A DNA stretch of 64,000 nucleotides from Alicyclobacillus sp. GTDB lineage: Bacteria; Bacillota; Bacilli; Alicyclobacillales; Alicyclobacillaceae. Location: the NCBI RefSeq assembly GCF_023511815.1, contig NZ_JAIMAV010000004.1:1-64000 (forward strand). Reading direction: 5' to 3'. Positions 23,417 through 61,084 of this stretch are shown in pieces. The notes under the pieces were generated by a model. It saw only the letters and a list, made by a program, of their open reading frames with translations, had not been told where the DNA came from and searched no databases. A program made the translations under genes and the position numbers. The stretch's first letter is position 1, and every line of letters begins with the position of its first letter.

Positions 23417-24738
23417 GCGGCCCCCCCAAGGATCACCCGGACCAGTTTTTCAATGTCCGCCACCTCGAGGTCATCCGGCACATTCTGACCGGTCGTGACG
23501 TAGGACAGCGGCAGACGGTACTTGCACATCAGGTTGAGAATCGCCCCGTGGCTCAGGGTCTCATCCAACTTGGTGAACAACAGTTTGTGAACGGGTAGCG
23601 CTTGGAACGACCCGGCCACCACGTCCATGTCCTCCGGTTTGGCCGTCAGCGACAGCACCAGGTGGACCTCGTCCACGGGCGCCGCGGCGAGCAGAGCCCG
23701 AACCTCATCGACGTACACGTCCATGCGGAAGTTCCGCCCGGCGGTGTCGACCAAAATCAGATCCCGGTCCGACAGCCGTTCCAGCGCCGCCGGGAAGTCC
23801 GCGGGCTGCTCCACGACCTCCAGCGGCACGTTCAGGATGGTCGCGTAGGTGCGGAGCTGGTCCACGGCCGCGATGCGGTAGGTGTCCGTCGTCACCAAAC
23901 CGACCCTCCGGTCTCCCGCGATCACGTGGAGCGCCGCCAGCTTGGCGATGGTTGTCGTCTTGCCGACCCCGGTCGGGCCGACCAGCACGACCACCCGGGC
24001 ATCCGGCGCGATGGGCTGCGGCTGGCGCAGATCCGCCAGGCTGTCGACAATCCGCCGGGTCAGCGCCGTCTTCAACTGTTCCGCGCGGGCCGGAAGCGAC
24101 GGGTTGTAGACGTTCTTCTCCTCCGTCGGCCAGGCCCCGGGCGAGTCCAACAGCGGCCACACCTGTTCGGGTTGAACCCCCTGCCGCACGAGCGTCTGCA
24201 GGAGCCCGCGCATTCCCAGCTCCCCCGCCTGCACGGCCGCTTCAATCAGGCGCCGGACCTCCGCGAGCTCCTGCCGGACCGATTCGAGGGCGTCCGACGT
24301 CACGGCCGGCTCGGTGCCGGCCCCCTCGTTCGGCGGGGGCACGGTGACGGGCGGTGACAAGAGCCCCCGAGACCCGGGCATCGGGGCGCACCCCGGCGCC
24401 TCGGTTGCCGCGGCCACCGTCCCGGGTGCCGCGGCCAACGCTCCGGTTGCCGCGGCCAGCGCCGCGGCCTCCTCGGCCTCGGAGCCGCGCGCCTCCCTGG
24501 GCCGCACCGCGCTGGCGGCGGGTCGCACGCCCGTTCGCGGCCGGGCGCTGTCGGCGACGAGCGGCACGTCGTCACCGGTGGCGGCCATCACCTCGATGCG
24601 GGTGCTTCGCCACAGCCCCAGCCATTTCCTCTGTTTAATTTTCTTTGTGCTGAGGATCACCGCGTCCTTCCCGAGCTCCTTGCGGATGAGCGCCACCGCC
24701 TCGGGCATCTCGCGGACCACATACCGCCGGACAATCAC
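23413..24738 (-). CDS. flhF: FlhF, SRP-type GTPase for flagellar placement
   Basis: 441 aa. N-terminal B domain (RRYVVREMPEAVALIRKELG, VILSTKKIKQRKWLGL), a Pro/Ala-rich spacer, an N domain, then the G domain: [57 protein letters not shown] and FTKLDET. GTG start overlaps the end of flhA. FlhF and FlhG together set flagellar site and number. Confidence 0.95.
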   Translation of the reverse strand: MIVRRYVVREMPEAVALIRKELGKDAVILSTKKIKQRKWLGLWRSTRIEVMAATGDDVPLVADSARPRTGVRPAASAVRPREARGSEAEEAAALAAATGALAAAPGTVAAATEAPGCAPMPGSRGLLSPPVTVPPPNEGAGTEPAVTSDALESVRQELAEVRRLIEAAVQAGELGMRGLLQTLVRQGVQPEQVWPLLDSPGAWPTEEKNVYNPSLPARAEQLKTALTRRIVDSLADLRQPQPIAPDARVVVLVGPTGVGKTTTIAKLAALHVIAGDRRVGLVTTDTYRIAAVDQLRTYATILNVPLEVVEQPADFPAALERLSDRDLILVDTAGRNFRMDVYVDEVRALLAAAPVDEVHLVLSLTAKPEDMDVVAGSFQALPVHKLLFTKLDETLSHGAILNLMCKYRLPLSYVTTGQNVPDDLEVADIEKLVRVILGGAA

Positions 24739-26771
24739 AGATTCACCACCCCTCCGCTCTCAATGGCCACGGCCGGATCCAGTTCGTTGTACGACAGCAC
24801 CGGCATGTCCGGAAGCATCCGCGCCAACCAGCGCCGAACCGGCAGGCGCAGGCGTGGATGGGTCAGGAGCGCCGGCGATTTGCCGAGATTCTGCTGGCGG
24901 GTCCATTCCTCCCGCAACCGGCGGATGAGCTGCTGCGCCACCTGCGGATCGACCCCCAGGAACGTGCCCGCGTCCGACGTCACCAGGGACGCCTGCAGCC
25001 GTTCCTCCACCGCGGGCGCGAGGGTGAGGACCGTCAACGGTTCATCCGGCGCCCTGAGCTGCTGGCAGATCTGCCGGCCCAACGCCTGGCGCACGTGTTC
25101 GGTCAGGAGATCGGTGTCCTTCGTCGTGCGCCCCGCGTCGGCGAGGGTCTCGAGGATGGTGACCAGGTCCCGAATCGAGACGCCCTCCTGCAACAGATTC
25201 GCCAGCACGCGCTGCACCTGACCGACCGTCAGCACCCCGGGCACCACGTCCTCGACCAGCGCGGGCGCCGAGGTCTTGATGTGGTCGAGCAACGCCTGCG
25301 TCTCCTGGCGGCCCAGAAGTTCGTGGGCGTGGCGTTTCAACACCTCGGTCAGGTGCGTCGCGATCACGGAACTCGGGTCCACCACGGTGTATCCCGACGC
25401 CTCCGCCCGATGCCGCACCTCCGCCGGGATCCACACCGCGGGCATGCCGAACGCGGGTTCGCGGGTCGGAATTCCGCCCAGGCTCGGGTCCTCCACCCCG
25501 GGGCTCATGGCCAGCCAATGTCCCATCCATACTTCGCCGCGCGCCACCTGGACTCCTCGTATCTTCACGACGTACTCCGATGGCTTGAGCTGAATGTTGT
25601 CACGCAGCCTTACCACCGGGATCACCAGGCCCAGCTCCAGGACCAGCTGGCGCCGGATGAGGGCCACCCGGTCCAGCAGATCGCCCCCCTGCTTGGCGTC
25701 CACGAGCGGAATCAGCCCGTAGCCGAACTCGAATTCAATCGGATCGACCCCCAGGAGGGTGTAGACGCTCTCCGGCTTTTTGACCTCCTCCGTCTTGGCC
25801 CGCAACGCCTGCTCCTGCTCGCGGCGCTGCATCTGATCCGCCTGGCGCTGCACGCGCCAGGCGATCAGCGCGGCCAGTGCCGCCACCGGTCCCGTGCGCA
25901 GAATCCCGATGGGCGTGAAAAGTCCCAACAGCCCCAGCGCCGCGGCGACCAGAAACAGAGCCCGCGGATACTGCATGACCTGCTTGAGCACGTCCGTCCC
26001 GAGGTTGGCGTCCGACGCCGCCCGGGTGACCATCAGGCCGGTCGCCGTCGACAGGAGCAGGGCCGGGATCTGGCTGACCAACCCGTCGCCCACCGACAGC
26101 AGGGTGTAGGTGTGCGCGGCGGTGGACCAGTCCATGTGGTGCATCGCCATGCCGATGATGAACCCGCCCACCGTGTTGATGGCGACGATGAGCATCGACG
26201 CGATGGCGTCCCCTTTGACGAATTTCGAAGCGCCGTCCATCGCCCCGTAGAAATCCGCCTCGCGTTCGATGGTCTGGCGCCGGCGTCTGGCCTCCTGCTC
26301 CGTGATCAGCCCCGCGTTGAGGTCCGCGTCGATGGACAGCTGCTTGCCCGGCATGGCGTCCAACGTGAAGCGGGCCGCCACCTCCGCCACGCGCTCCGCC
26401 CCGCGCGTGATCACGATGAATTGGATCACCGCGAGGATGAGGAACACCACGAACCCGACGACGATGTTGTCGCTGATGACGAAGTTTCCGAATGTGGCGA
26501 TCACCGAGCCGGCGTCCGCCTGCGTCAGGATGAGCCGCGTCGAGGACACGTTGAGCGCCAGCCGGTACAGCGTCGTGATCAACAGCAGCGACGGGAACAC
26601 GGAGAACTCCAGCGGCTCCTTGGTGTTCATCGCCACCATCAGCACCGTCATCGACGCGAACAGATTGATCACCAAAAGCACGTCGAGCAAGGTCTTGTTG
26701 AGCGGGATCACCATCATCACGACAATCCCGATGACCGCTGCCATCACGGCCAGATCGGACCGCTTCACCAT
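24735..26771 (-). CDS. flhA: Flagellar export gate protein FlhA
   Basis: 678 aa. Eight N-terminal transmembrane helices, the FHIPEP region between them (ITRGAERVAEVAARFTLDAM, MPGKQLSIDADLNAGLI, DFYGAMDGASKFVKGDAIAS), and a large cytosolic C-terminal domain with PVVRLRDNIQL and SSVIATHLTEVLKRHAHELL. FlhA forms the nonameric export gate. ATG directly follows the flhB stop. Confidence 0.97.
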   Translation of the reverse strand: MVKRSDLAVMAAVIGIVVMMVIPLNKTLLDVLLVINLFASMTVLMVAMNTKEPLEFSVFPSLLLITTLYRLALNVSSTRLILTQADAGSVIATFGNFVISDNIVVGFVVFLILAVIQFIVITRGAERVAEVAARFTLDAMPGKQLSIDADLNAGLITEQEARRRRQTIEREADFYGAMDGASKFVKGDAIASMLIVAINTVGGFIIGMAMHHMDWSTAAHTYTLLSVGDGLVSQIPALLLSTATGLMVTRAASDANLGTDVLKQVMQYPRALFLVAAALGLLGLFTPIGILRTGPVAALAALIAWRVQRQADQMQRREQEQALRAKTEEVKKPESVYTLLGVDPIEFEFGYGLIPLVDAKQGGDLLDRVALIRRQLVLELGLVIPVVRLRDNIQLKPSEYVVKIRGVQVARGEVWMGHWLAMSPGVEDPSLGGIPTREPAFGMPAVWIPAEVRHRAEASGYTVVDPSSVIATHLTEVLKRHAHELLGRQETQALLDHIKTSAPALVEDVVPGVLTVGQVQRVLANLLQEGVSIRDLVTILETLADAGRTTKDTDLLTEHVRQALGRQICQQLRAPDEPLTVLTLAPAVEERLQASLVTSDAGTFLGVDPQVAQQLIRRLREEWTRQQNLGKSPALLTHPRLRLPVRRWLARMLPDMPVLSYNELDPAVAIESGGVVNL

Positions 26772-26772
26772 G

Positions 26773-27858
26773 TCACCCCTTCACCAACCCCGACCGCATC
26801 CGGTACACGTACGCCAGCACCTCCGCGACCGCCCGGTACAGCTCGCGCGGGATGGCCTCATCCACCTCCACCCGGCGGTAGAGCGTTTGTGCGAGCGGGC
26901 GGTTTTCGACCACCGGGACCCCGTGCGAACGGGCGATGGACCGGATGCGCAGCGCCAGCTCATCCTGTCCCTTGGCGACCACGCGTGGCGCGGACATGGT
27001 CTTCGCGTCGTAGCGCAGGGCCACCGCGAAGTGTGTGGGGTTGGTCACGACCACGTCCGCCTTCGGGACGTTCTGCATCATGCGGCGCATCGCCAGGGCG
27101 CGCGCCTGCTGGCGGATGCGCTGGCGGATCTGCGGGTCTCCCTCCTGTTGCCGGAACTCGTCCTTGACCTCCTGCCGCGTCATCCGGATGCTGCGCTCGA
27201 AGGAAAATCGCTGCCAAATCCAGTCCAACGCGGCGATGGCGGCCAACGCCGCGGCGATCTCGACGGCCAACCGTCCCGCCTCCCGGCCGATGGCCCCGGG
27301 CACCCCCGCCGGGTCCACGCCTCCGAGCCGCGCCACCGACTCGGCCGCCCCCTTCGCCGCAGCGTAGGCCACCGCTCCGACCAAGGTCAGCTTCGCCACC
27401 GACTTGGCCGCCTCGACGAGCGTCCTGGCGCTCCAAAGCCGCCGGATCCCAGCCAATGGATTGACGCGGCCCGCATCGGGCACGAGGAGCCTTGGCACAA
27501 ACAGGGGCCCGACCTGGGCGAAGGCGGCCGCCATCCCCGCCAGCAGCGCAATCCCCGCCACCGGAAGCACCATCTTCGCCACACGCAGCGCGAGCCCGAG
27601 GAAGATGGCGCTCACCGCCTTCGGCGTCCAGTCAAGAGGCACCGCCGCCGACAGGCCGGAGGCCATGGCGTCGATGGCTTGATTCCACACCTGCGCGCCG
27701 AACGCGACGAGCGCCAACACCCCCGCCAACAGCGCCACGGCCCCGCTGAGCTCCGGGCTGTGCGGAATCCGTCCCTGGCGGCGCACCTCCTGCCGCCGCC
27801 GCGGGGTGGCTCGCTCCGTCCGTTCCTCGGCAAACCGCTGCAGCGAGAACGGAACCAC
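26773..27858 (-). CDS. flhB: Flagellar export switch protein FlhB
   Basis: 361 aa. The N-terminal cytosolic segment (RFAEERTERATPRRRQEVRR) is followed by four transmembrane helices and the autocleaving C-terminal domain with VVTNPTHFAVALRYD (cleavage N-PTH), APRVVAKGQDELALRIR and VPVVENRPLAQTLYR. It switches export specificity from rod/hook to filament together with FliK. GTG start with GGGGGATGAGG upstream. A shorter FlhB-like protein is encoded at 56492-56806. Confidence 0.97.
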   Translation of the reverse strand: MVPFSLQRFAEERTERATPRRRQEVRRQGRIPHSPELSGAVALLAGVLALVAFGAQVWNQAIDAMASGLSAAVPLDWTPKAVSAIFLGLALRVAKMVLPVAGIALLAGMAAAFAQVGPLFVPRLLVPDAGRVNPLAGIRRLWSARTLVEAAKSVAKLTLVGAVAYAAAKGAAESVARLGGVDPAGVPGAIGREAGRLAVEIAAALAAIAALDWIWQRFSFERSIRMTRQEVKDEFRQQEGDPQIRQRIRQQARALAMRRMMQNVPKADVVVTNPTHFAVALRYDAKTMSAPRVVAKGQDELALRIRSIARSHGVPVVENRPLAQTLYRRVEVDEAIPRELYRAVAEVLAYVYRMRSGLVKG

Positions 27859-34869: not shown

Positions 34870-36240
34870 CTACGCCTGCAACCCTCGCCATCCGCCCAGG
34901 GGCGGTCCGGAGGACACGGCTTTGATCCGCGCCGTCCGGCTCCCTTCCGTCACCTCACGCTCCCCCGGGCCATCCCCGTGTGACGACGCTCCTTGCCGGG
35001 AACGGTTGCCCCCCGCATCCGCCTGTCCGGTCCACCCACCGAAGACCACCTGCACGGACGCAACCGCCACTCCGGAGGCCCGAATGGCGTCGGTCAATTG
35101 TCCCGTGAGGCCCGTCAACCACTGGCCGGTGGACCACTGGGCCGCCGCCAACTCCACCCGCACTCCGGCGTCCGTCCGGTGGACGGTCAGAGTCAGATCG
35201 CCCAACCCCTCCGGATGAACCCGCACCTGCACCTGCTGCACGCCATGATCCACCGACTGCACCACCAATCCCGCGAGCTGCGGTGCCGCCTGCGCGTCGA
35301 GATATCGCACGATGGGGTGAGCACCGGAGGGCGAGTTCCCCGATGGCGCGCTTTGGGCCACGAGCGCATTCGCGGAGGGGGTCGGCGCACCCGCCAGACC
35401 CTGCAACCCGTCCTGGGACGATACGGCATGCGCACCGTCCCAGCCGGCCCGTTCCGCGGCATCCGAGGCGCTCATCCCAGTCCCGCTCCGTCCATGTCCG
35501 GTTCCCTGCATAAGCCCGGCAGCGGCCGCGCTCCGACCGTTCCACATGGTCCGATTGCGGCCGGGTTCCGCATCCCCATCCTCTCCGTCCGGCATTTCGG
35601 TGCTGGCTGCGTGCCCCACAAACGGCGAGGTACCGGGGATCTCCGGCATCACGCCTGGCGGCGTTGCCGACCGCGAACCCGACCTTCCAGGCCCCCATTG
35701 GGCCCGTTGGGGTTGAGAAGCGGCCCTCACACCGGTGCCACCCTCGATCCCCTCGGACAAGACCGATGCAAATGTGTCGCTTTGGGCATCCGCGGGCAAT
35801 ACGTCCGCCCTCTGGTTCGTTCGGCCCGCCTGCCCTGCTTGGTTGAATCGGGCCGGCCGCCCGTCCGCTCCGTCCATCGGACGCTCATCCCACGCCATCC
35901 CCGACGGCGGGCCTCCTCCGCCAATCGCGCCGCGTCCGTCGGCCGCGTCCTGCGCGCCGGCCAAACCTTCCGCCCCCGCTCGCGGTCCGCCCCGCCGGGT
36001 TGCGAGCGCCCCCGATTCCTCGCTCAAGGCCGTGGCGGGCACCCCGCGAGGGGATATTCCGGGCGCGGCGGCCGCCCCTTGGGCAGGCATTCCGGGCATT
36101 CCCGGCATGGTGGGTGTCGCGAGAAGACCACTGGCGACCAGCGCCTGCCAGAAGGCATCGGGATCGTCCCGTTTGGGCGGACCGCCTGAAGGGACCGCGT
36201 GTCCACCCGCGGTTGTCGTCGAACCGGCCGAAATCCTCAT
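34870..36240 (-). CDS. fliK: Flagellar hook-length control protein FliK
   Basis: 456 aa. A very Gly/Pro/Ala-rich N-terminal and central region (ruler) precedes the C-terminal Flg_hook domain: QVQVRVHPEGLGDLTLTVHR, VRVELAAAQWSTGQWLTGL and AIRASGVAVASVQVVFGG. FliK measures the hook and triggers the FlhB switch. The ATG at 36240 with AGGAGAGGGAAG upstream is preferred over the ORF-track start. As usual the ruler is poorly conserved; identity rests on the C-terminal domain and position. Confidence 0.9.
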   Translation of the reverse strand: MRISAGSTTTAGGHAVPSGGPPKRDDPDAFWQALVASGLLATPTMPGMPGMPAQGAAAAPGISPRGVPATALSEESGALATRRGGPRAGAEGLAGAQDAADGRGAIGGGGPPSGMAWDERPMDGADGRPARFNQAGQAGRTNQRADVLPADAQSDTFASVLSEGIEGGTGVRAASQPQRAQWGPGRSGSRSATPPGVMPEIPGTSPFVGHAASTEMPDGEDGDAEPGRNRTMWNGRSAAAAGLMQGTGHGRSGTGMSASDAAERAGWDGAHAVSSQDGLQGLAGAPTPSANALVAQSAPSGNSPSGAHPIVRYLDAQAAPQLAGLVVQSVDHGVQQVQVRVHPEGLGDLTLTVHRTDAGVRVELAAAQWSTGQWLTGLTGQLTDAIRASGVAVASVQVVFGGWTGQADAGGNRSRQGASSHGDGPGEREVTEGSRTARIKAVSSGPPLGGWRGLQA

Positions 36241-36259
36241 GGCTTCCCTCCTCTCCTCA

Positions 36260-36880
36260 TCATCCGCTGGTATTGCCGGTGTCCGTCGCGTTCCCGCTTC
36301 CATCCGCCGCATTCATCGCGGCCACCCCGGAGGCCTGCGCCATCAGCGCAGCCGCTGTCTGCGCGGGAAGCGCCGCCAGAACCTGCGCCGACGCGTCGGG
36401 CGCCATGGCGGCGATCACGCGCGCCGCCTCGGCGGTGGGCAGCTTGGCGACCACGCCCGCGGCCTGTGCGGGATCCATCCCCGTCAGCCACTGCGCCTCC
36501 TTCACCGCCCGCGCCCGGTCGTCGGCCGCCGCGGCCAATCGGGCTTGCGCCTGTGCCAGTTGTTGCGCAAGCTGTTCCCGGGACTGCTGCGACGCCGTCA
36601 GCTGCTGCTCGAGCGTCGCGACCTGTTTTTGCGCGTCCGCCAACTTTCGCCGGGTATCCTCCAGGGCCTGTTGCGCCTGTGCCAACGGGGTATCTCCGGA
36701 CGAGGCGGTGTCGTGGGACGTCAGATGGCGCACGCTCTGCCACACCGGGACCCCGGCCAGCTGAAGGGCGCCTGCGACCATGGCCACCGTCGCGACCAGC
36801 GGCACGACCACCACCAGGGCGATCCAGGCCAGCACCCGGCCGACGGACCGCCTTTCCGCCCGCATCGCCGCCGTGGCCAT
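36260..36880 (-). CDS. MotE/YlxF-family protein
   Basis: About 206 aa: N-terminal membrane helix (LAWIALVVVVPLVATVAMVA), a coiled coil of about 65 residues (QQALEDTRRKLADAQKQVAT), and a C-terminal MgtE_N-like helical domain (GMDPAQAAGVVAKLPTAEAA, VIAAMAPDASAQVLAALP). This matches the MotE/YlxF family, always between fliJ and fliK, and thought to help the export or stator machinery. ATG overlaps the fliJ stop. Confidence 0.85.
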   Translation of the reverse strand: MATAAMRAERRSVGRVLAWIALVVVVPLVATVAMVAGALQLAGVPVWQSVRHLTSHDTASSGDTPLAQAQQALEDTRRKLADAQKQVATLEQQLTASQQSREQLAQQLAQAQARLAAAADDRARAVKEAQWLTGMDPAQAAGVVAKLPTAEAARVIAAMAPDASAQVLAALPAQTAAALMAQASGVAAMNAADGSGNATDTGNTSG

Positions 36881-53797: not shown

Positions 53798-53823
53798 GCC
53801 GAGTCCTCCTTACGTCCAGGTGG

Positions 53824-53861
53824 TTGTGTTGCGCAGGCCCCCGGGACCGCGGGCAACACAA
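53824..53861 (-). promoter_or_regulatory. Hairpin in the sucCD leader
   Basis: Arms TTGTGTTGC / GCAACACAA (9 bp perfect) flank a GC-rich centre that can also pair (CCGG / CCCGGG). It lies about 12 nt upstream of the sucC ribosome site. A role in translation control or mRNA stability is inferred only from position. Confidence 0.5.
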
Positions 53862-53939
53862 AAAGACAACACCCGGTCGTCTTCGCCGCCATCGGGGGTT
53901 CGGCCGGCGAAAGGCGATCTGGATGTCCAATCCTTTTCT

Positions 53940-53968
53940 AAGATAAAATACGGCCGTTGGATTTACAA
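53940..53968 (-). promoter_or_regulatory. Promoter for sucCD
   Basis: Minus strand: -35 TTGTAA (53963-53968), 17-nt spacer, -10 TATCTT (53940-53945). An alternative -10 TATTTT lies 3 nt closer. Transcription would start near 53932, leaving a leader of about 135 nt with the hairpin. Confidence 0.6.
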
Positions 53969-53980
53969 CTTGGAAATGCG

Positions 53981-54008
53981 TGCATCCCCGGCCCAAGCCG
54001 GGGATGCA
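53981..54008 (-). terminator. Terminator-like hairpin downstream of the small membrane protein gene
   Basis: A perfect 12-bp inverted repeat (TGCATCCCCGGC / GCCGGGGATGCA, 4-nt loop) lies between the stop at 54027 and the sucCD promoter. No proper T-tract on the minus strand, so termination strength is uncertain. Confidence 0.5.
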
Positions 54009-54026
54009 CCGGTTCGTTTTGGGGGG

Positions 54027-54344
54027 TCAATGGCCGCGGGCCCACATCGTGACCGCGCCGGCGACGAAGGAGAACGCCATGCACAGCACATACACCGACA
54101 ACAGGCGCATCGCGAATCGATCCCGCCAGATGTGCATCACCAGCGCCAGCACGCTGCCGATGAGTGCCAGCGCCCACGTCCAGACGACACAGGCCGCCTG
54201 CCACGGGAACGGGATGCAGCTGGCCGCCGCCGTCAAGACCGAAGCGAACGCCAATCCCCACGCGCACAGGACCACCACCCACTGCGGCCAGCTGCGCATC
54301 GTGCGCAGATGATGCAGGCGTTTTTTCGCCTTCCACGCCCGCAT
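54027..54344 (-). CDS. Small hypothetical membrane protein
   Basis: 105 aa from the ATG at 54344 (AGGGTGAT upstream). A basic N-terminus (MRAWKAKKRLHHLRTMRSW) precedes three transmembrane helices (VVVLCAWGLAFASVLTAAAS, VVWTWALALIGSVLALVMHI, LLSVYVLCMAFSFVAGAVTM). No family recognised. The loop after helix 1 has Pro/Cys, and the helix pattern suggests N-in topology. It is divergent from comM. Confidence 0.6.
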   Translation of the reverse strand: MRAWKAKKRLHHLRTMRSWPQWVVVLCAWGLAFASVLTAAASCIPFPWQAACVVWTWALALIGSVLALVMHIWRDRFAMRLLSVYVLCMAFSFVAGAVTMWARGH

Positions 54345-54511
54345 GCTGATCACCCTGGCCGGTTGCGGATTCCGGCCGGGCCACCTGGTGTTCTGCGGTT
54401 TCCCGTGATGTCCCTGTCCCTGCACAGCTCACAACCCCTCACCCGTTTGTCTACGATGGTACCCTGAGGACGGGAGATTCGCAAGATCTACTCATTCTAT
54501 TCAGAATACCA

Positions 54512-54539
54512 TGGACAACATCGCCCGCATCGATATATA
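54512..54539 (+). promoter_or_regulatory. Candidate promoter for the comM/yifB gene
   Basis: Plus strand: -35 TGGACA (54512-54517), 16-nt spacer, -10 TATATA (54534-54539), about 55 nt before the gene start. Just upstream is an ATTCT-ATTC-AGAAT dyad (54495-54508) of unknown meaning. Confidence 0.5.
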
Positions 54540-54597
54540 ACAGCGTATGCAAGAGGTCGCACGGATTTGGCGGTTGCGCCGGAAGGAGGGCCACTTT

Positions 54598-56064
54598 ATG
54601 GTCGGAACAGCGGTCGGCGCGGTGCTCGAAGGCATCCGCGGGGCGCTGGTCACGGTGGAGGCGGATGTCGGCCGCGGTCTCCCTCAATTTCACATCGTCG
54701 GGCTGCCCGATTCGGCGGTCAACGAGTCCAAACTCCGGATCCGCTCCGCGATCCGACAGTGCGGTCTGGAGTTCCCGAATCAACGCATCACCGTCAATCT
54801 GTCTCCCGCCAGCGTGCGCAAACGCGGGGCCGGTCTGGATTTGGCCATCGCCGTCGCCATCCTCAGGGCCGCCGGTGTGCTCCCGGGTTCCGAAACACCG
54901 CTTGGCTTCGCGGCCGAGCTGAGCCTGTCCGGAGCGCTCGTCGCCGTGCCGGAAGCCGTCAATCTGGCCATCGCTCTGGCGGCGGAAGGGATTGAACACC
55001 TGGTTGTCGCACGGGCGCAGGCCGTCACCTGCGTACCCGTCCCGAACCTGACGTGGCACCTGTATTCCCACCTGGCCGACCTCATCCGGGACCTGCGCGC
55101 GGGCGGGGGGCCGCGCCGGCCGTACCCCCCGCCGCCGATTCCCGCCGGCGACAGCGAGGTCAGCCTGGACGACGTCCTCGGCCAGGAGGCGGTCAAGCGC
55201 GCCCTGGTCATCGCCGCCGCCGGCCACCACCACATTCTGCTGGTGGGCCCGCCCGGATGTGGAAAGACGATGCTCGCCGAACGCCTGCACACGCTCCTCC
55301 CGGACCTTTCGCCGGCGGATGCGCTCGAGGTGCACGCCATCCATCTGGCGGGGGGGTCCCGCCAGCCGACGCTGCGGCCCCCGCTGCGGATGCCCCATCA
55401 CTCCGTGGGCCAGGCGGGTCTCATCGGCGGCGGATCGCCCCCCGCCCCGGGGGAGGTGACGCTCGCCCACCGCGGTGTCCTGGTCCTCGACGAGATGCTC
55501 GAGTTTCGCCGCGCGGCGCTGGAGGCGCTGCGCGAGCCCCTGGTGCACGGCGCGGTGCATCTGACGCGCGCCGGCCGGTCCGTGACCTATCCGGCCGCGT
55601 TCCTGCTCGTCGGCACGCTCAACCCGTGTCCCTGCGGCCAGAGCGGATTCGGCACCTGCACCTGCCCGCAGGCGGCGGTTCAACGGTACTGGAGCCACCT
55701 GTCCGGCCCGTTGCTCGACCGGATCGACATGGTGATCCCGGTGCTCCCGGAGCATGGTCGCGCCGTTCTACCCGCGGGGCCGCGGGCGAGCGTCCTGCGC
55801 CAGGCCGTTGTCACCGCCCGCGACGCACTCGCGCACCGGCCGGCGGACGCGGCCACCCGCACCCGGCCGGCCGACTTCACCCTCGCGGCGCACCGCCGTC
55901 TTCAGCTCGCCGCGGAACGGCTGCCGCTGTCCCAGCGCGGCCGGCAGGCCATCGCCCGGCTGGCCCGAACCCTCAGCGCGCTGGACGGGGCGGATGCCGT
56001 CGACGCGCGGCACATCGACGAGGCCATCGCCCACCGGACCACCGGCCTGCCCCAGGGCCGGTGA
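54598..56064 (+). CDS. YifB/ComM-family Mg-chelatase-like AAA+ ATPase
   Basis: 488 aa. N-terminal S5/Lon-like domain (GRGLPQFHIVGLPDSAVNES, RITVNLSPASVRKRGAGLDL), then AAA+: Walker A ILLVGPPGCGKTMLAERL, the HSVGQAGLIGGGSPPAPGEV loop, Walker B GVLVLDEMLEFRRAALEALR, NPCPCGQSGFGTCTCPQAAV and sensor region LSGPLLDRIDMVIPV. C-terminal Mg_chelatase_C (RTLSALDGADAVDARHIDEA). ComM is a branch-migration helicase in natural transformation in Gram-negatives; here dprA is nearby. ATG 54598 with AAGGAGGG is preferred over 54547. Confidence 0.93.
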   Translation: MVGTAVGAVLEGIRGALVTVEADVGRGLPQFHIVGLPDSAVNESKLRIRSAIRQCGLEFPNQRITVNLSPASVRKRGAGLDLAIAVAILRAAGVLPGSETPLGFAAELSLSGALVAVPEAVNLAIALAAEGIEHLVVARAQAVTCVPVPNLTWHLYSHLADLIRDLRAGGGPRRPYPPPPIPAGDSEVSLDDVLGQEAVKRALVIAAAGHHHILLVGPPGCGKTMLAERLHTLLPDLSPADALEVHAIHLAGGSRQPTLRPPLRMPHHSVGQAGLIGGGSPPAPGEVTLAHRGVLVLDEMLEFRRAALEALREPLVHGAVHLTRAGRSVTYPAAFLLVGTLNPCPCGQSGFGTCTCPQAAVQRYWSHLSGPLLDRIDMVIPVLPEHGRAVLPAGPRASVLRQAVVTARDALAHRPADAATRTRPADFTLAAHRRLQLAAERLPLSQRGRQAIARLARTLSALDGADAVDARHIDEAIAHRTTGLPQGR

Positions 56065-56139
56065 TCGTCCGTCTCTCCTTCTCGCCCATCTCCTTGCGAT
56101 CCGGTGCCGGGGGACCGGCATCCTCCCGTACTGGCATCC

Positions 56140-56526
56140 TCACGCCCCGTCAGACGGAATGTCGCAGGCGCCGCGGACGTGATCGAACGCCGCCACGCGC
56201 CCATTGCGGACGGTGACGCCGATGACGTCCACGCGCACCATGCTCGGCTTCGGGTCGGGCAACTCGGCCACAAGCCGCCGGATGGCCCGTTGCAGGCGCC
56301 GCTGTTTGGTCGGTGTCACCGATTCGAGGGGGGTGCCGAATCCGTCCGTGCTGCGCGTTCGCACCTCGATGACGACCAGTTCGCCCTGCGGTGTCCGGGT
56401 GACGAGGTCCAGCTCCCCAAATCGGCACCGCCCCCGGGTCCTCTCCACGCGCCAACCGAGCACGCGCTCGACGTACTGGGCGGCAAACCGCTCACCGAAT
56501 CGCCCGAGGCGCCCCCTCGCGTCCAT
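56140..56526 (-). CDS. YraN/UPF0102 family endonuclease-like protein
   Basis: 128 aa. GRLGRFGERFAAQYVERVLG, CRFGELDLVTRTPQGELVVI, then EVRTRSTDGFGTPLESV: the UPF0102 restriction-endonuclease-like fold with E/D...E-V-R. The classical E-V-K is E-V-R here. Function unknown; often next to rnhB and comM-like genes. ATG at 56526 with GGGGTGGGG upstream; convergent with the comM-type gene. Confidence 0.92.
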   Translation of the reverse strand: MDARGRLGRFGERFAAQYVERVLGWRVERTRGRCRFGELDLVTRTPQGELVVIEVRTRSTDGFGTPLESVTPTKQRRLQRAIRRLVAELPDPKPSMVRVDVIGVTVRNGRVAAFDHVRGACDIPSDGA

Positions 56527-56806
56527 TCGGCCCCACCCCTTCGCCGGACGAGCGCGCGGCCTGATGGATCGCGGCGAGCACCTGTGCGACGACCTCGTAC
56601 AGTTCCTGCGGGATCACCGCGTCCACCTCGAGGGCCATGAGGGCCGCCGCCAGCGCCGGATCCCGGTGGACGGGGACGTTGGCCTCGCCCGCGCGGCGCA
56701 GGATTGCCTCCGCCACCGCCCCGCTGCCCTTGGCCACCACGCGCGGGGCGGCATCCACCGACCGCCTATACCGGAGCGCCACCGCCCGCCGCCGCTCCAT
56801 CGTCAT
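56492..56806 (-). CDS. FlhB C-terminal-like protein (FlhX/YlqH)
   Basis: 104 aa. It matches the C-terminal cytosolic domain of FlhB after the cleavage site (compare AAPRVVAKGSGAVAEAILRR with APRVVAKGQDELALRIR of FlhB here) and continues VPVHRDPALAAALMALEVDA and IPQELYEVVAQVLAAIH. It lacks membrane helices; the segment where NPTH would stand reads RRSVDAAPR, so there is no autocleavage motif. Known in Bacillus as YlqH; FlhX in other species can partly replace FlhB_C. ATG 56806 with AGGAGG upstream. Confidence 0.85.
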   Translation of the reverse strand: MTMERRRAVALRYRRSVDAAPRVVAKGSGAVAEAILRRAGEANVPVHRDPALAAALMALEVDAVIPQELYEVVAQVLAAIHQAARSSGEGVGPNGREGAPRAIR

Positions 56807-57872
56807 CTCCCTCCTCGTCCGACACGTGCCAGCCGGACAGACGCCATCCCGACGCGGCGAGCGCGGCACCGACCGCCGCCTCGGCCGCAGCCAGAGCGGG
56901 TCGCAGCGCCTGCGGCGCCGCAAGCCGCACGGACACGGACGGTTGTGCCGCCAGGATCTCCACCGCCACGTCCCCGCCGCGAACCCGGACGCGAAGTTCC
57001 AGCCGGTGGACCGTTCGCCCATCGGGGGTCGTTCGGCTCCGCCGCCGCCCCTCCCAGTGAACCGCGGGCCCTCTCGTCGGTTGCGCGCCCGCCGGTCCGG
57101 GCCAGAACAGGCCGGCGCCGAGCACCGCGCCGTCGGGGGCCTGCACGGCCGCCTGCACGCGCGCCGCCAGCGCCTTTCGCTGCACCGTCTCCGGCGCGTG
57201 GGCGTATTGCGAATGCCCCCAGTGCGCGAAGTCCACCACCGCACCGGTCTGGCCCGCGCCGGGTGCAACGGAACCCCCTCCCGCACGGGTGGGATTCGGC
57301 GCCGACGCCAAATCGCTCGACGCGGCGGAGGGCGAACCGGCAGAGTTCGGCGCCGCGGAGAATCCGCCGCCGGGCGGGGGATCGACGGGCGGATGTCCCT
57401 CCACCCGCGCACCCGGCCAATACACCTCACCGTCCGAAGCCCCCTGTGCCAACTCCGCCAACACGGTCCACAGCCGCACCATGGCCTCGGGGTTGGCACC
57501 GCCGCCCCCATCCGAAGGGTCCGCGGGTGCCTGCGCGGGGCCCGGGATGCCGGTGAGATCGAACATCAACCGGCGCCACGCCCACTCCGTCCGCAGCCAT
57601 TCCGCTCGCTCCAACAGGCGCGCGGGCAGGACCTGCTCCAGCCGCGCCACCTGCGCCAACCCGGTGCCATCCGCGCCGGCTCCTGCGAGGCGGTCCCCCC
57701 GGGCGACCCGGTCCCCCCGGGCGCCGCGCGGGCCATCCGCGGCTCCTTCCGACCGGGGGTGTTCCCCCTCTCCCGCCGGCACCGGTCCTCGAACGCGGCC
57801 GGATTCGCGAACGGGCGGCACGCCCGCGCCCGTCAGACCCGCCCCGCCCGGCGGCAACACCGGCCCGCTCAC
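56766..57872 (-). CDS. YlqG-like protein with a FliK/Flg_hook-like C-terminal domain
   Basis: 368 aa from GTG 57872, which overlaps the rnhB stop (GGTGAGC). The N-terminal 250 residues are Gly/Pro/Ala-rich and of low complexity. The C-terminal ~90 residues (ELRVRVRGGDVAVEILAAQP, SVSVRLAAPQALRPALAAAE, ALAASGWRLSGWHV) follow the pattern of the Flg_hook domain of FliK (compare ASGVAVASVQV in this window). It overlaps the FlhB-like gene by 41 nt. Identity as YlqG rests on synteny (rnhB-ylqG-ylqH). Possibly a FliK paralogue; see findings. Confidence 0.65.
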   Translation of the reverse strand: MSGPVLPPGGAGLTGAGVPPVRESGRVRGPVPAGEGEHPRSEGAADGPRGARGDRVARGDRLAGAGADGTGLAQVARLEQVLPARLLERAEWLRTEWAWRRLMFDLTGIPGPAQAPADPSDGGGGANPEAMVRLWTVLAELAQGASDGEVYWPGARVEGHPPVDPPPGGGFSAAPNSAGSPSAASSDLASAPNPTRAGGGSVAPGAGQTGAVVDFAHWGHSQYAHAPETVQRKALAARVQAAVQAPDGAVLGAGLFWPGPAGAQPTRGPAVHWEGRRRSRTTPDGRTVHRLELRVRVRGGDVAVEILAAQPSVSVRLAAPQALRPALAAAEAAVGAALAASGWRLSGWHVSDEEGDDDGAAAGGGAPV

Positions 57873-58543
57873 CAGATCCCCAGCGTGGCCTGGCACGCCC
57901 GCCGCACCGGTGCGAAGGAACGTCTGTGCAAAGGCGTCGGGCCATGCGTCGCCAGGGCGCTCAGGTGTTCCGGCGTCCCATAGCCGACATGCCGCTCAAA
58001 CCCGTACGCCGGGTACGCACCGGCCTGCCCCCGCATCCACCGGTCTCTTGCCACCTTGGCGACGATGGACGCCGCCGCGATGGACAGACAGCGGGCGTCC
58101 CCGTCAATCACCGGGACCGCCCGCAGGGGCCGGGTCGGGAACACCGGCGCGTACGGCCCGTCCGCCAGCACCAGGCCCACGGGCACGGACAGCCCCTCCA
58201 CCGCCCGGCCCATCGCCAGGCGCGCGGCCTGGAGGATGTTCATCTCGTCAATCTCCGCCGCGCTCGCAAAGCCCACCGAGACCGCCGCCGCGTCGCGCAG
58301 AATCCGCTCGTAGAGCGCCTCGCGCTGCCGGTATGTAAGGGATTTCGAATCGTCGACAAACACCCACCGCTCCGGCGGCCCGTTCAGCACCACCGCCGCG
58401 GCGACCACCGGCCCGGCGAGCGCCCCGCGCCCCGCCTCATCGACCCCGGCGTACACGCACGTGGACTCGACCAGCATCTGTTCCTCGCGCCAAAGCCGCT
58501 GTGCCCGCAGTTGGCGCGCGGCCAACCGTTCCTCCGTCCGCAC
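57869..58543 (-). CDS. rnhB: Ribonuclease HII
   Basis: 224 aa. YAGVDEAGRGALAGPVVAAA (catalytic D-E-G), VDDSKSLTYRQREALYERI, VIDGDARCLSIAAASIVAKV with the catalytic Asp, and YGFERHVGYGTPEHLSAL. It removes ribonucleotides from DNA. GTG start with GAGGAGG upstream. Confidence 0.97.
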   Translation of the reverse strand: MRTEERLAARQLRAQRLWREEQMLVESTCVYAGVDEAGRGALAGPVVAAAVVLNGPPERWVFVDDSKSLTYRQREALYERILRDAAAVSVGFASAAEIDEMNILQAARLAMGRAVEGLSVPVGLVLADGPYAPVFPTRPLRAVPVIDGDARCLSIAAASIVAKVARDRWMRGQAGAYPAYGFERHVGYGTPEHLSALATHGPTPLHRRSFAPVRRACQATLGIW

Positions 58544-58575
58544 GGTCGACCTCCTCGCTTTCGAAAACCTCTCTC

Positions 58576-59520
58576 TCAGTCTACCGCCGCGGGCCCCGTT
58601 TGGCCATCCACCTGAGGAGAATTCTCATCCCGCTCGGGCGGCCACTCAAACGAAAGACGGCCGAGTTTGCCGGTCTGCACCTCGCGCAGCAACAGATCGG
58701 CGGCGCGTTCCTCGTCCCAGGCACCGCCTCCGCGACGCAGACCGCGCCGCTGGGCGATCCCGTTCAACACCGGCTCGGCGGCGCGCCACACGGCTCCCGT
58801 GTCGAGGGACTCGAGCGAAGAGGTGTCCGCGGCCGGTTCCACGCCGTACCGTTCCACCAGGGCCGTCGGGTAATGGCGGGATGCGAACACCACAAAATAG
58901 GCGGCGACCAGCAGCCGATCGACCACCTCCGCCTTGATGGCGCCCGACACCGCCAGCGCCAGCGCCGCGCGCTGGTCCTCCAGCTTCGGCCACAGGACCC
59001 CGGGCGTGTCCAGCAACTCCACCTGCCCCAGGCGCACCCACTGCGGGGTCTGCGTGATGCCGGGCCGATCCCCGATGCGCGCCGCTGCGCGCCCGGCCAA
59101 CCGGTTGATGAGAGAGGACTTGCCGACGTTCGGGATGCCCACCACCATCGCCCGCAGGGGCCGCGGCCGAATCCCGCGGCGCGCCTCCTTCTCCCGCAGC
59201 GCCCGCGCGGCCTCCTCGAGGGCCGGGACAATCTCGTGGACGCCGCGGCCACTCTTCGCGTCGACGAGGACCACGGGGTATCCCTCGCCACCCAGGTGAG
59301 CCGTCCACGCCGCGGTGGCTCGGGGATCCGCGAGATCGATCCGGGTCATCACCACGACCTTCGGCCTTGCCCCGAGCATCTGGCGAAGCATCGGATTGCG
59401 GCTTGCCGCCGGCAGCCGGGCGTCGACCAACTCGAGCACCGCGTCGACGCGGCGCAGCGACTCCTCCATCTGCCGCTTTGCTTTGGCCATGTGGCCGGGA
59501 AACCAATGGATGGGTTCCAC
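58576..59520 (-). CDS. rbgA: Ribosome biogenesis GTPase RbgA (YlqF)
   Basis: 314 aa circularly permuted GTPase. It starts HWFPGHMAKAKRQMEESLRR, then G4 (VVVMTRIDLAD), G5 region, G1 VVGIPNVGKSSLINRLAG, G2/G3 PGITQTPQWVRLGQVELLDT with DTPGVLWPK. G4 here is TRID where most have NK-D. C-terminal ANTAR-like helical domain. It matures the 50S subunit with uL6. GTG with GGAGGCG upstream, following rplS. Confidence 0.95.
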   Translation of the reverse strand: MEPIHWFPGHMAKAKRQMEESLRRVDAVLELVDARLPAASRNPMLRQMLGARPKVVVMTRIDLADPRATAAWTAHLGGEGYPVVLVDAKSGRGVHEIVPALEEAARALREKEARRGIRPRPLRAMVVGIPNVGKSSLINRLAGRAAARIGDRPGITQTPQWVRLGQVELLDTPGVLWPKLEDQRAALALAVSGAIKAEVVDRLLVAAYFVVFASRHYPTALVERYGVEPAADTSSLESLDTGAVWRAAEPVLNGIAQRRGLRRGGGAWDEERAADLLLREVQTGKLGRLSFEWPPERDENSPQVDGQTGPAAVD

Positions 59521-59563
59521 CGCAACGCCTCCTCTTTAGATGGACGCCGTTGTCTCACGGTAT

Positions 59564-59593
59564 AAAAAAGGAGGACGGTTTCCCGTCCCCCTC
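59564..59593 (-). terminator. Rho-independent terminator downstream of rplS
   Basis: On the minus strand GGGGGACGG-GAAA-CCGTCCTCC (9 bp with one G-T pair) is followed by six Ts. It lies between rplS and rbgA, so rbgA would rely on read-through. Confidence 0.85.
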
Positions 59594-59620
59594 GATGTCG
59601 TTGGTTGCGCGACGGCCCCC

Positions 59621-59962
59621 TCAGCGAATCTCCTTGATGCGGGCCGCCTTGCCGGACAGGCCGCGCAGGTAGTACAGCTTGGCGCGGCGCACCTTGCCGC
59701 GGCGCACGACCTCAATTTTCTCCACCTTCGGCGAATGCAACGGGAACGTGCGCTCCACGCCGACGCCGTACGAGATCTTGCGGACGGTGTAGGTCTCGCT
59801 GATGCCACCGCCGCGCCGGCGGATCACGACGCCCTCGAAGACCTGAATGCGCTCACGCTGTCCTTCACGAACCTTCACGTGCACCCGCACGGTGTCACCG
59901 GGGCGAAAATCCGGGATGTCGGTGCGCAGCTGGTCCTGGGTCACTTCACGCAGAATGTTCAT
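59621..59962 (-). CDS. rplS: Ribosomal protein bL19
   Basis: 113 aa. [83 protein letters not shown] 59962 with AAGGAGGG upstream. It has its own promoter, leader hairpin and terminator, so it appears to be a mono-cistronic unit. Confidence 0.98.
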
Positions 59963-59984
59963 CCGGAACGCCCTCCTTCCCACA

Positions 59985-60024
59985 GGTGTTCATACCATCC
60001 TCTCAGCCCTGGCAGCGGAACACC
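59985..60024 (-). promoter_or_regulatory. L19-leader-like hairpin upstream of rplS
   Basis: Between the promoter and rplS the RNA has arms GGTGTTC / GAACACC closing a loop with CCGCTGCCAGGGCTGAG. This resembles the bL19 autoregulatory leader described in Bacillota (Rfam L19_leader), by memory and without alignment. It would bind bL19 and repress its own mRNA. Confidence 0.55.
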
Positions 60025-60040
60025 GTAATCACGCCGAACC

Positions 60041-60070
60041 ATTCTACCACACTCATCGCTCGTTCGGCAA
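60041..60070 (-). promoter_or_regulatory. Promoter for rplS
   Basis: Minus strand: -35 TTGCCG (60065-60070), 18-nt spacer, extended -10 TGGTAGAAT with hexamer TAGAAT at 60041-60046. Confidence 0.75.
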
Positions 60071-60075
60071 TCGCT

Positions 60076-60783
60076 TCATGTGTTGGACCGGTGGATCTGA
60101 ACCGTGGCACTCATCCCGGGGACCAGGTGCACCCCGCCGTACCCGGACAGGTCGATGCGCACCGGCACCGTCTGGGTGACCTTGGTGTAGGTTCCGCTCG
60201 CCGTCCCCGCCGCGGGAAGCAGAGAGAACAGCGAGTTCGTCGCCCGCCCGATGCTGGTCACCGTCCCCTTGAACGTCTGGTCGGGATACGCGTCGATATG
60301 GATGTCCACCGCGTCACCGACGTCCACGTTGCGCACATCGGTCTCATTGATGTTGGCGGTGACGTAGAGGTGATTGAGGTCCACCACATACGCCAACGGT
60401 TGCCCGGGTGCGGCCATCTGGCCGACCGTCGCGTTGACGCGGGTGATGGTCCCGCCGGTCGGGCTGTCGATCTCGGCGGCCCGATTGACCGCCGCCGCGA
60501 CGTTCGGGTCCTTCGCCGCCTGACCCAGCTGCCCGAGCTCGATCCGCGGATCCACCTTGCCGAGGGCCTGTCCGGCCTGCACCGTATCGCCTTCCTTGAC
60601 ATTCCACGCGGTCAGATCGCCGGCGAACTGCACGTTGACCGGATACTCCGGCCCCTCCACAAAGGCGTTGTTGGTGGTGACGAAGTTCTCCCGGTTGTAA
60701 TAGTACGTGTACCCGCCGTAAATCAAACCGAGGATCACCAACAACGCCACGACGTTGAGCAAAATGATGCGCCGCAAGCCCAC
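60076..60783 (-). CDS. HlyD/EmrA-family membrane fusion (adaptor) protein
   Basis: About 235 aa. N-terminal signal-anchor helix (IILLNVVALLVILGLIYGGY), biotinyl-lipoyl half motifs (VQFAGDLTAWNVKEGDTVQA and the return strand DSPTGGTITRVNATVGQMAA), beta-barrel (VTANINETDVRNVDVGDAVD). The long hairpin of typical HlyD is replaced by about 25 residues (GQLGQAAKDPNVAAAVNRAA). Family members are adaptors for MFS or ABC exporters; none is next to it. Start chosen at GTG 60783, with AGAAGAGGGG upstream; the ORF track begins 8 codons earlier. Confidence 0.85.
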   Translation of the reverse strand: MGLRRIILLNVVALLVILGLIYGGYTYYYNRENFVTTNNAFVEGPEYPVNVQFAGDLTAWNVKEGDTVQAGQALGKVDPRIELGQLGQAAKDPNVAAAVNRAAEIDSPTGGTITRVNATVGQMAAPGQPLAYVVDLNHLYVTANINETDVRNVDVGDAVDIHIDAYPDQTFKGTVTSIGRATNSLFSLLPAAGTASGTYTKVTQTVPVRIDLSGYGGVHLVPGMSATVQIHRSNT

Positions 60784-60824
60784 GCGAACACCCCTCTTCT
60801 GTGCCACTGCGATGCTTTAGCCGA

Positions 60825-60858
60825 CATAAATTTTATGATGTGTAGCTTCGTTTGTCTA
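60825..60858 (-). promoter_or_regulatory. Promoter and palindrome for the HlyD gene
   Basis: Minus strand: -35 TAGACA (60853-60858), 17-nt spacer, -10 TAAAAT (60830-60835). The -10 lies inside a 13-bp palindrome CATAAAATTTATG (60825-60837). Each promoter hexamer differs from consensus by one base. The palindrome may be an operator. Confidence 0.55.
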
Positions 60859-60885
60859 GCGCTCGGCCGCGGTGTTTGGCAAAGC

Positions 60886-60910
60886 AAAACGGTCCCCGGA
60901 CGGGGACCGT
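60886..60910 (-). terminator. Rho-independent terminator downstream of the 47-aa ORF
   Basis: On the minus strand ACGGTCCCC / GGGGACCGT (9 bp) followed by TTTGCTTTG. It ends the short transcript before the HlyD promoter. Confidence 0.75.
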
Positions 60911-60940
60911 CTCTCACACCGTTGTCCAACTCCGGCCGGT

Positions 60941-61084
60941 TCAGGCGCCCTGCGGGTCTTCCGCGGGGATGCCATCCCCCTGGCCGGATGCGTCCTCCTC
61001 CGGAGCCCTGCGGGCCATCCGGTCCAAGGACACCTCAATCTCCAGATCCTGAATGAAACGTGGCAGCTCCGGCTGCTGTTTCAT
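60941..61084 (-). CDS. Small acidic hypothetical protein (47 aa)
   Basis: The ATG at 61084 has GAGGGGGG with 7-nt spacing. The product (MKQQPELPRFIQDLEIEVSL start, then DRMARRAPEEDASGQGDG) is soluble, acidic, with a short amphipathic helix in the N-terminal half and a disordered tail. No family recognised. It is framed by a strong promoter with an operator-like repeat upstream and a terminator downstream, which argues that it is a real transcription unit. Confidence 0.6.
   Translation of the reverse strand: MKQQPELPRFIQDLEIEVSLDRMARRAPEEDASGQGDGIPAEDPQGA

Follow-up and report, generated by a model that had tools for sequence, protein, structure and literature searches.

Why would a bacterium that already encodes the flagellar export switch keep a second version of its two interacting parts among housekeeping genes? 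The question is raised by ylqG and flhX (ylqH), two overlapping genes in the 64,000-nucleotide stretch of Alicyclobacillus sp. DNA analyzed here (contig NZ_JAIMAV010000004.1, hereafter the window; Table 1). A sequence-only reading had noticed a FliK-like and an FlhB-like open reading frame at 56492-57872, and we found both there, on the minus strand between rnhB and yraN. Because the genome also has a complete canonical FliK, an FlhB with NPTH, and FlhA, ylqG-flhX is an additional pair. That reading had also placed the pair outside the flagellar operon. This holds, with the refinement that the operon lies only ~13 kb downstream on the same strand. The minus-strand order is rplS-ylqF-rnhB-ylqG-flhX-yraN-(comM)-sucCD-dprA-topA-trmFO-xerC-hslU-flg/fli, with the XerC-type recombinase and HslU-type ATPase genes falling between trmFO and the flagellar operon. 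The comM-type gene (54547-56064) is on the plus strand, opposite its neighbors, and separates yraN from sucC in the window's lineage. In some other Bacilli, sucC directly follows rnhB or flhX.

The only promoter-like site between 55900 and 60300 was at 60070-60041 on the minus strand, upstream of rplS, so the pair is probably co-transcribed with housekeeping genes. Since its operon partners rnhB, ylqF, and yraN are housekeeping genes, its expression is probably also off the flagellar timetable. An Rfam search of 53800-61000 returned no match.

Table 1. Coordinates of the ylqG-flhX locus and of the canonical flagellar genes used for comparison
Feature	Position	Strand	Remarks
ylqG	56766..57872	-	368 aa; GTG start, 4-bp GTGA overlap with rnhB stop
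flhX/ylqH	56492..56800	-	102 aa, ATG start; stand-alone FlhB C-terminal (post-cleavage) domain
ylqG/flhX overlap	56766..56800	-	35 bp
yraN (UPF0102), downstream neighbor	56140..56526	-	PF02021, 71 bits; 35-bp overlap with flhX
rnhB (RNase HII), upstream neighbor	57869..58543	-	PF01351, 123 bits
ylqF/rbgA, operon neighbor	58576..59520	-	Gene order same in relatives
rplS, likely first operon gene	59621..59983	-	
YlqG C-terminal T3S4/Flg_hook (FliK-type switch) domain	56802..57032	-	Flg_hook 18.3 bits, hhalign, AlphaFold2/Foldseek
FlhX A18-P19 = FlhB A286-P287 (early-substrate pocket)	56744..56749	-	Alignment, PMC9307174
FlhX A72...L75 = FlhB A341...L344 (early-substrate pocket)	56576..56587	-	Alignment, PMC9307174
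Canonical FliK, flagellar operon (comparison)	34870..36312	-	Flg_hook 35 bits
Canonical FlhB with NPTH (comparison)	26773..27858	-	PF01312, 411 bits
FlhA	24735-26771		Same genome

The smaller gene is the more readily assigned through its family. The PF01312 match of FlhX (71 bits) is confined to model positions 262-335 of 335, which identifies the protein as the C-terminal part of FlhB alone, and neither the membrane domain nor NPTH is present in its sequence. Its best NCBIfam score, 82.2 bits, was to TIGR00789, whose curated cut-off of 117.35 it does not reach; the match spans model positions 2-81 of 84. Orthologues share 38-75% identity across Bacillota and other phyla, and the gene is under purifying selection. 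In the alignment with the PDB set, FlhX residue 6 pairs with residue 274 of Salmonella FlhB, an offset that would place M1 at N269, which immediately precedes the cleaved bond. FlhX would thus be, in effect, born cleaved, equivalent to the part of FlhB that follows the NPTH cut. An AlphaFold2 model (pLDDT 83) matched the FlhB cytoplasmic domain in Foldseek, with an rmsd of 1.6 Å to the cleaved FlhB chain 3b0z_B (3B0Z) and 0.8-0.9 Å to the Aquifex structure 3b1s (3B1S). FlhX also shares the early-substrate pocket of FlhB, A286-P287-A341-L344 (PMC9307174), which reads A18-P19-A72-L75 in the window. Across 76 FlhX proteins, the A286 equivalent was conserved in 68, P287 in 74, A341 in 74, and L344 in 72 (L in 52 and F in 20).

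In a tree built from few columns, these 76 FlhX (from Bacillota, Thermodesulfobacteriota, Nitrospirota, Pseudomonadota, and metagenome-assembled genomes assigned to Myxococcota) formed one clade apart from 19 FlhB, mostly from the same genomes, with an SH-aLRT of 99. This split rules out a recent flhB duplication, and FlhX is, as far as the tree places it, an old paralogue of FlhB and no recent fragment. Some genomes with FlhX carry altered autocleavage motifs in FlhB: NPVH (L175, G012), NPEH (L188, G311), and NPTR (L183, G316).

Assigning YlqG required comparison at the level of the family. On its own, the C-terminus of the window's YlqG scored just 15-18 bits against Flg_hook, for which the Pfam cut-off is 29.8, although some orthologues exceeded that cut-off. 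Flg_hook matched 50 of 67 homologous YlqG C-terminal regions (best 7e-20), and hhalign of YlqG against 31 canonical FliK gave a probability of 95.6% and an E-value of 1.3e-8 over 75 columns. Against the PDB, the YlqG profile matched FliK 2RRL (1.2e-4) and the ruler protein 5CUK (0.016). The full-length profile additionally matched NusA; these matches were gone when the C-terminal domain was used alone. The AlphaFold2 model of the C-terminal domain (pLDDT 87.8) covers the switch domain in the last ~80 residues, and its best two matches among 350,542 PDB chains were the PscP switch domain 5CUK (probability 0.99) and FliK_C 2RRL (1.00; rmsd 2.0 over 64 columns). Because the Foldseek E-values of these matches were modest (0.07 and 0.10, with none below 0.06), the structural argument lies in the specificity of the two top matches. 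Taken with the profile comparison, the predicted fold makes the assignment of the last ~80 residues of YlqG to a FliK-type switch domain secure.

The N-terminal half of YlqG behaves differently from this domain. Alignments of full-length or N-terminal YlqG to FliK, or between YlqG lineages, recovered nothing beyond the C-terminal domain. The half is rich in Pro, Gly, and Ala, with conserved islands at P83, E96-W97-x-W99-R100, and L134-W135. Among Bacilli loci, YlqG reaches lengths of up to 805 aa.

These results bear on three descriptions in the sequence-only reading. The view of FlhX as an FlhB C-terminal domain lacking the membrane part and NPTH agrees with the confined Pfam match, the sequence, and the fold. 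The proposed Flg_hook pattern at the YlqG C-terminus was recovered by both profile search and structure prediction. The low-complexity description of the YlqG N-terminal half stands for its composition but not fully, given the conserved islands.

The two genes are found together far beyond the window. A YlqG-type gene lies directly upstream of flhX in all 39 Bacilli loci and in 27 of 29 wider Bacillota loci, a few of which repeat Bacilli genomes. The same holds in the window's family for nearly all flhX loci with enough upstream sequence. In other phyla, a YlqG-type gene accompanied flhX in six of ten loci (L041, L043, L044, L046, L049, and L050), and several of these genomes encode a separate, longer FliK too. 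The spread of FlhX orthologues and the presence of YlqG upstream in nearly all loci indicate that neither gene is a chance open reading frame.

To place the pair relative to flagella, we compared 281 Bacilli genomes, of which 201 have FlhA proper and 80 do not; the count of 201 reflects 208 matches minus seven fragment-like ones near 1e-20. A comparison of the two tables placed the FlhB_C family in the same 201 genomes, with no FlhB_C-type protein in any of the other 80. FlhX, inferred from at least two FlhB_C copies per genome (FlhB plus FlhX) with loci read in a subset, was present in 180 of the 201 FlhA-positive genomes vs. none of the 80 lacking FlhA, a count over related rather than independent genomes in which absence recurs within single families. 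FlhA was likewise found in all ten genomes behind the ten FlhX loci from other phyla. The co-occurrence with flagella that the sequence-only reading had offered as a check was therefore borne out, and we conclude that the pair almost certainly belongs to flagellar export. Together with the FliK-type domain found by profile and fold, this strict co-occurrence supports the earlier suggestion of a satellite export-switch module.

Two side observations concern the copy numbers themselves. The seven excluded FHIPEP (FlhA) matches, in G089, G163, G203, G232, G240, G248, and G272, which lack FlhB_C, ranged from 1e-19 to 1e-23, while true FlhA fell below 1e-140; in these Bacilli, which are apparently non-flagellated, they represent fragments or remotely related FHIPEP-like proteins. 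Genomes of the Bacilli families f11, f16, f18, and f37 carry three FlhB_C copies each, one above FlhB plus FlhX.

Gene order around rnhB in genomes without the pair was consistent with its clean excision. G022 and G028 have neither FlhA nor FlhX, and rnhB abuts yraN, whereas G009 of the same genus has rnhB-ylqG-flhX. Among further non-flagellated genomes, rnhB is followed by yraN in G069, G105, G118, and G127 and by sucC in G062, G096, and G135. The arrangement rnhB-sucC also occurs in G056, G155, and G221, which are flagellated but lack FlhX, and other genes occupy the rnhB loci of the FlhX-less G073 and G276. Searches of the 21 flagellated Bacilli genomes without FlhX found no clear YlqG; the matches listed lay at or near the canonical fliK wherever the position of that gene was listed. 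Thus, ylqG and flhX come and go together. In 21 of the 201 flagellated Bacilli there is no second copy of FlhB_C, nor, in those checked, a YlqG, so the pair is dispensable in flagellated Bacilli.

The window's YlqG differs from most others at its extreme C-terminus. Of 39 YlqG from other lineages, 37 terminate in a hydrophobic-[D/N]-hydrophobic-x-hydrophobic tail (typically GVDIRI or GVDLKI), and the tail is mostly kept in the wider Bacillota (GIDVRV, NIDFTI, and VDFRV). The same pattern ends 14 of 31 canonical FliK, whose last five residues have been suggested to target the FlhB fragment (PMC13344023). The pattern is missing from all 23 YlqG in the window's lineage, so the window's pair appears from these sequences to be a derived form, with the binding domain kept and the tail lost. 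This genome's canonical FliK terminates in ...GWRGLQA, which differs from the tails of most of its relatives.

Parts of this picture were already known, in that the FlhX family has a name and FliK is a classical protein. Binding of FlhB_C by the core domain of FliK is established (PMC6972891), and a 2026 study found that FliK causes the cleaved FlhB fragment, FlhB_CCD, to be lost, that FlhB_CCD removal abolishes early secretion, and that its removal together with Fluke locks late secretion (PMC13344023). FlhX is among listed flagellar export proteins (PMC10746217), and the title of Wand et al. 2006, as cited in PMC3040844, calls Helicobacter pylori HP1575 a "spare part" for a deleted FlhB fragment. 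The window's FlhX resembles this family (HP1575, Bacillus subtilis YlqH, and TIGR00789 flhB_rel) as a stand-alone FlhB_C that lacks a membrane part and occurs with flagella. Previously, however, FlhX was discussed alone, whereas the present analysis links it to a conserved partner gene that encodes a T3S4 domain; a spare-part activity for it would be an analogy with H. pylori. From FlhB itself, FlhX differs in lacking the membrane domain and NPTH and in forming a separate, ancient clade.

YlqG, in turn, resembles FliK (Flg_hook, PDB 2RRL) in its C-terminal switch domain and, in most lineages, in its tail. The window's YlqG differs in lying outside the flagellar operon, lacking the tail, scoring below the Pfam cut-off, and having an N-terminal half that does not align, and an intact FliK is encoded in the same genome. 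The T3S4 fold is shared with the switch domain of the ruler PscP/YscP (5CUK), which joined FliK as a top Foldseek match but is an injectisome protein, and the parts of the window that we examined showed no injectisome. A similar arrangement is mentioned in a survey in which flhX and fliK of Nitratiruptor, one of the Campylobacterota, are neighbors at a distance from the main cluster (PMC9321776); the passages found there analyze the pair neither functionally nor comparatively. Literature searches for YlqG and YlqH found no functional study. The sole YlqG data point is P457Q, seen in evolved clones of B. subtilis and mentioned where non-swarming clones are discussed; other mutations accompanied it, and it is not evidence of function. 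Our impression is that the open-licence literature holds no paper on YlqG as a T3S4 protein, on the conserved YlqG-FlhX pair, or on tail loss.

We propose that YlqG-FlhX is an accessory flagellar export-switch pair, in which FlhX would serve in trans as a spare FlhB fragment and YlqG would be the protein that binds FlhX; we regard this reading as evenly poised between right and wrong. From the domain identities, coding overlap, pairing, flagellum dependence, conserved pocket and fold, and tail loss, we infer physical binding, a spare-part role, and a direction of effect. FlhX would represent a genetically pre-cleaved copy of FlhB_CCD starting at the NP cleavage site. Acting in trans, it would most likely occupy or refill the FlhB_CCD site of export gates, or hold early substrates, and its action would support early (rod and hook) secretion. 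YlqG would most likely bind FlhX, and possibly FlhB, and control the availability of FlhX. In most Bacillota, a YlqG with a FliK-like tail could actively displace the fragment. Because the tail was lost in the window's lineage, the YlqG there is more likely to hold or escort FlhX than to eject it. A bolder extension is that FlhX acts as a reload cartridge: after FliK removes the FlhB fragment, cytoplasmic FlhX, delivered or gated by YlqG, would refill the site, and the refilled gate would return to early secretion, so that a supposedly irreversible switch could be reset in most flagellated Bacillota. Taken as a whole, this extension is doubtful.

Other explanations share much of the same evidence. 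YlqG could be a second working FliK, secreted through the flagellum as a ruler or switch that measures or times a step and flips FlhB, with FlhX as its dedicated target. The T3S4 domain, the tail retained in most Bacilli and wider Bacillota, and the greatest YlqG lengths fit this idea, which we see as a minority possibility; yet it sits poorly with a lineage in which every YlqG is tail-less, with an N-terminal part that aligns neither to FliK nor among the YlqG lineages themselves, and with a housekeeping operon in a genome where fliK is intact. The pair could instead act as a decoy brake, with FlhX titrating early substrates and FliK and YlqG titrating FlhB_CCD, leading to delayed switching or damped cytoplasmic export. 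Both proteins are soluble copies of two interacting surfaces, the FlhX pocket is conserved, and the window's YlqG lacks an ejecting tail. However, the activity reported for H. pylori FlhX, going by that title, is positive, and the retention of tails in most lineages argues against pure titration, making this account rather unlikely.

Two further alternatives would detach the pair from the switch altogether. Its housekeeping operon could suggest that it serves a non-flagellar process, such as another export route, and is flagellar by ancestry alone, but we consider this highly improbable and largely refuted by the co-occurrence test, in Bacilli and in other phyla, and by the clean excision in flagella-less relatives. 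The low Flg_hook score of the window's YlqG taken alone might even point to a GC-rich, Pro/Ala-rich protein resembling Flg_hook by chance beside a decaying FlhB fragment. The profile comparison, fold match, and family-wide Flg_hook matches refute such a coincidence, while conservation and pairing across phyla and purifying selection on FlhX also oppose it, leaving it next to no probability.

How the exporter changes over from hook to filament proteins has long been asked, and the 2026 study centers the question on FliK-driven removal of the FlhB fragment (PMC13344023). Most flagellated Bacillota carry a second, soluble, apparently pre-cleaved copy of that fragment, paired at the gene level with a second FliK switch domain. 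This small pair was missing from every non-flagellated Bacilli genome in the sample, and in the model bacterium B. subtilis it can be deleted (ylqG-ylqH). Through it, the idea that the switch might be supplied, blocked, or reset in trans becomes directly testable.
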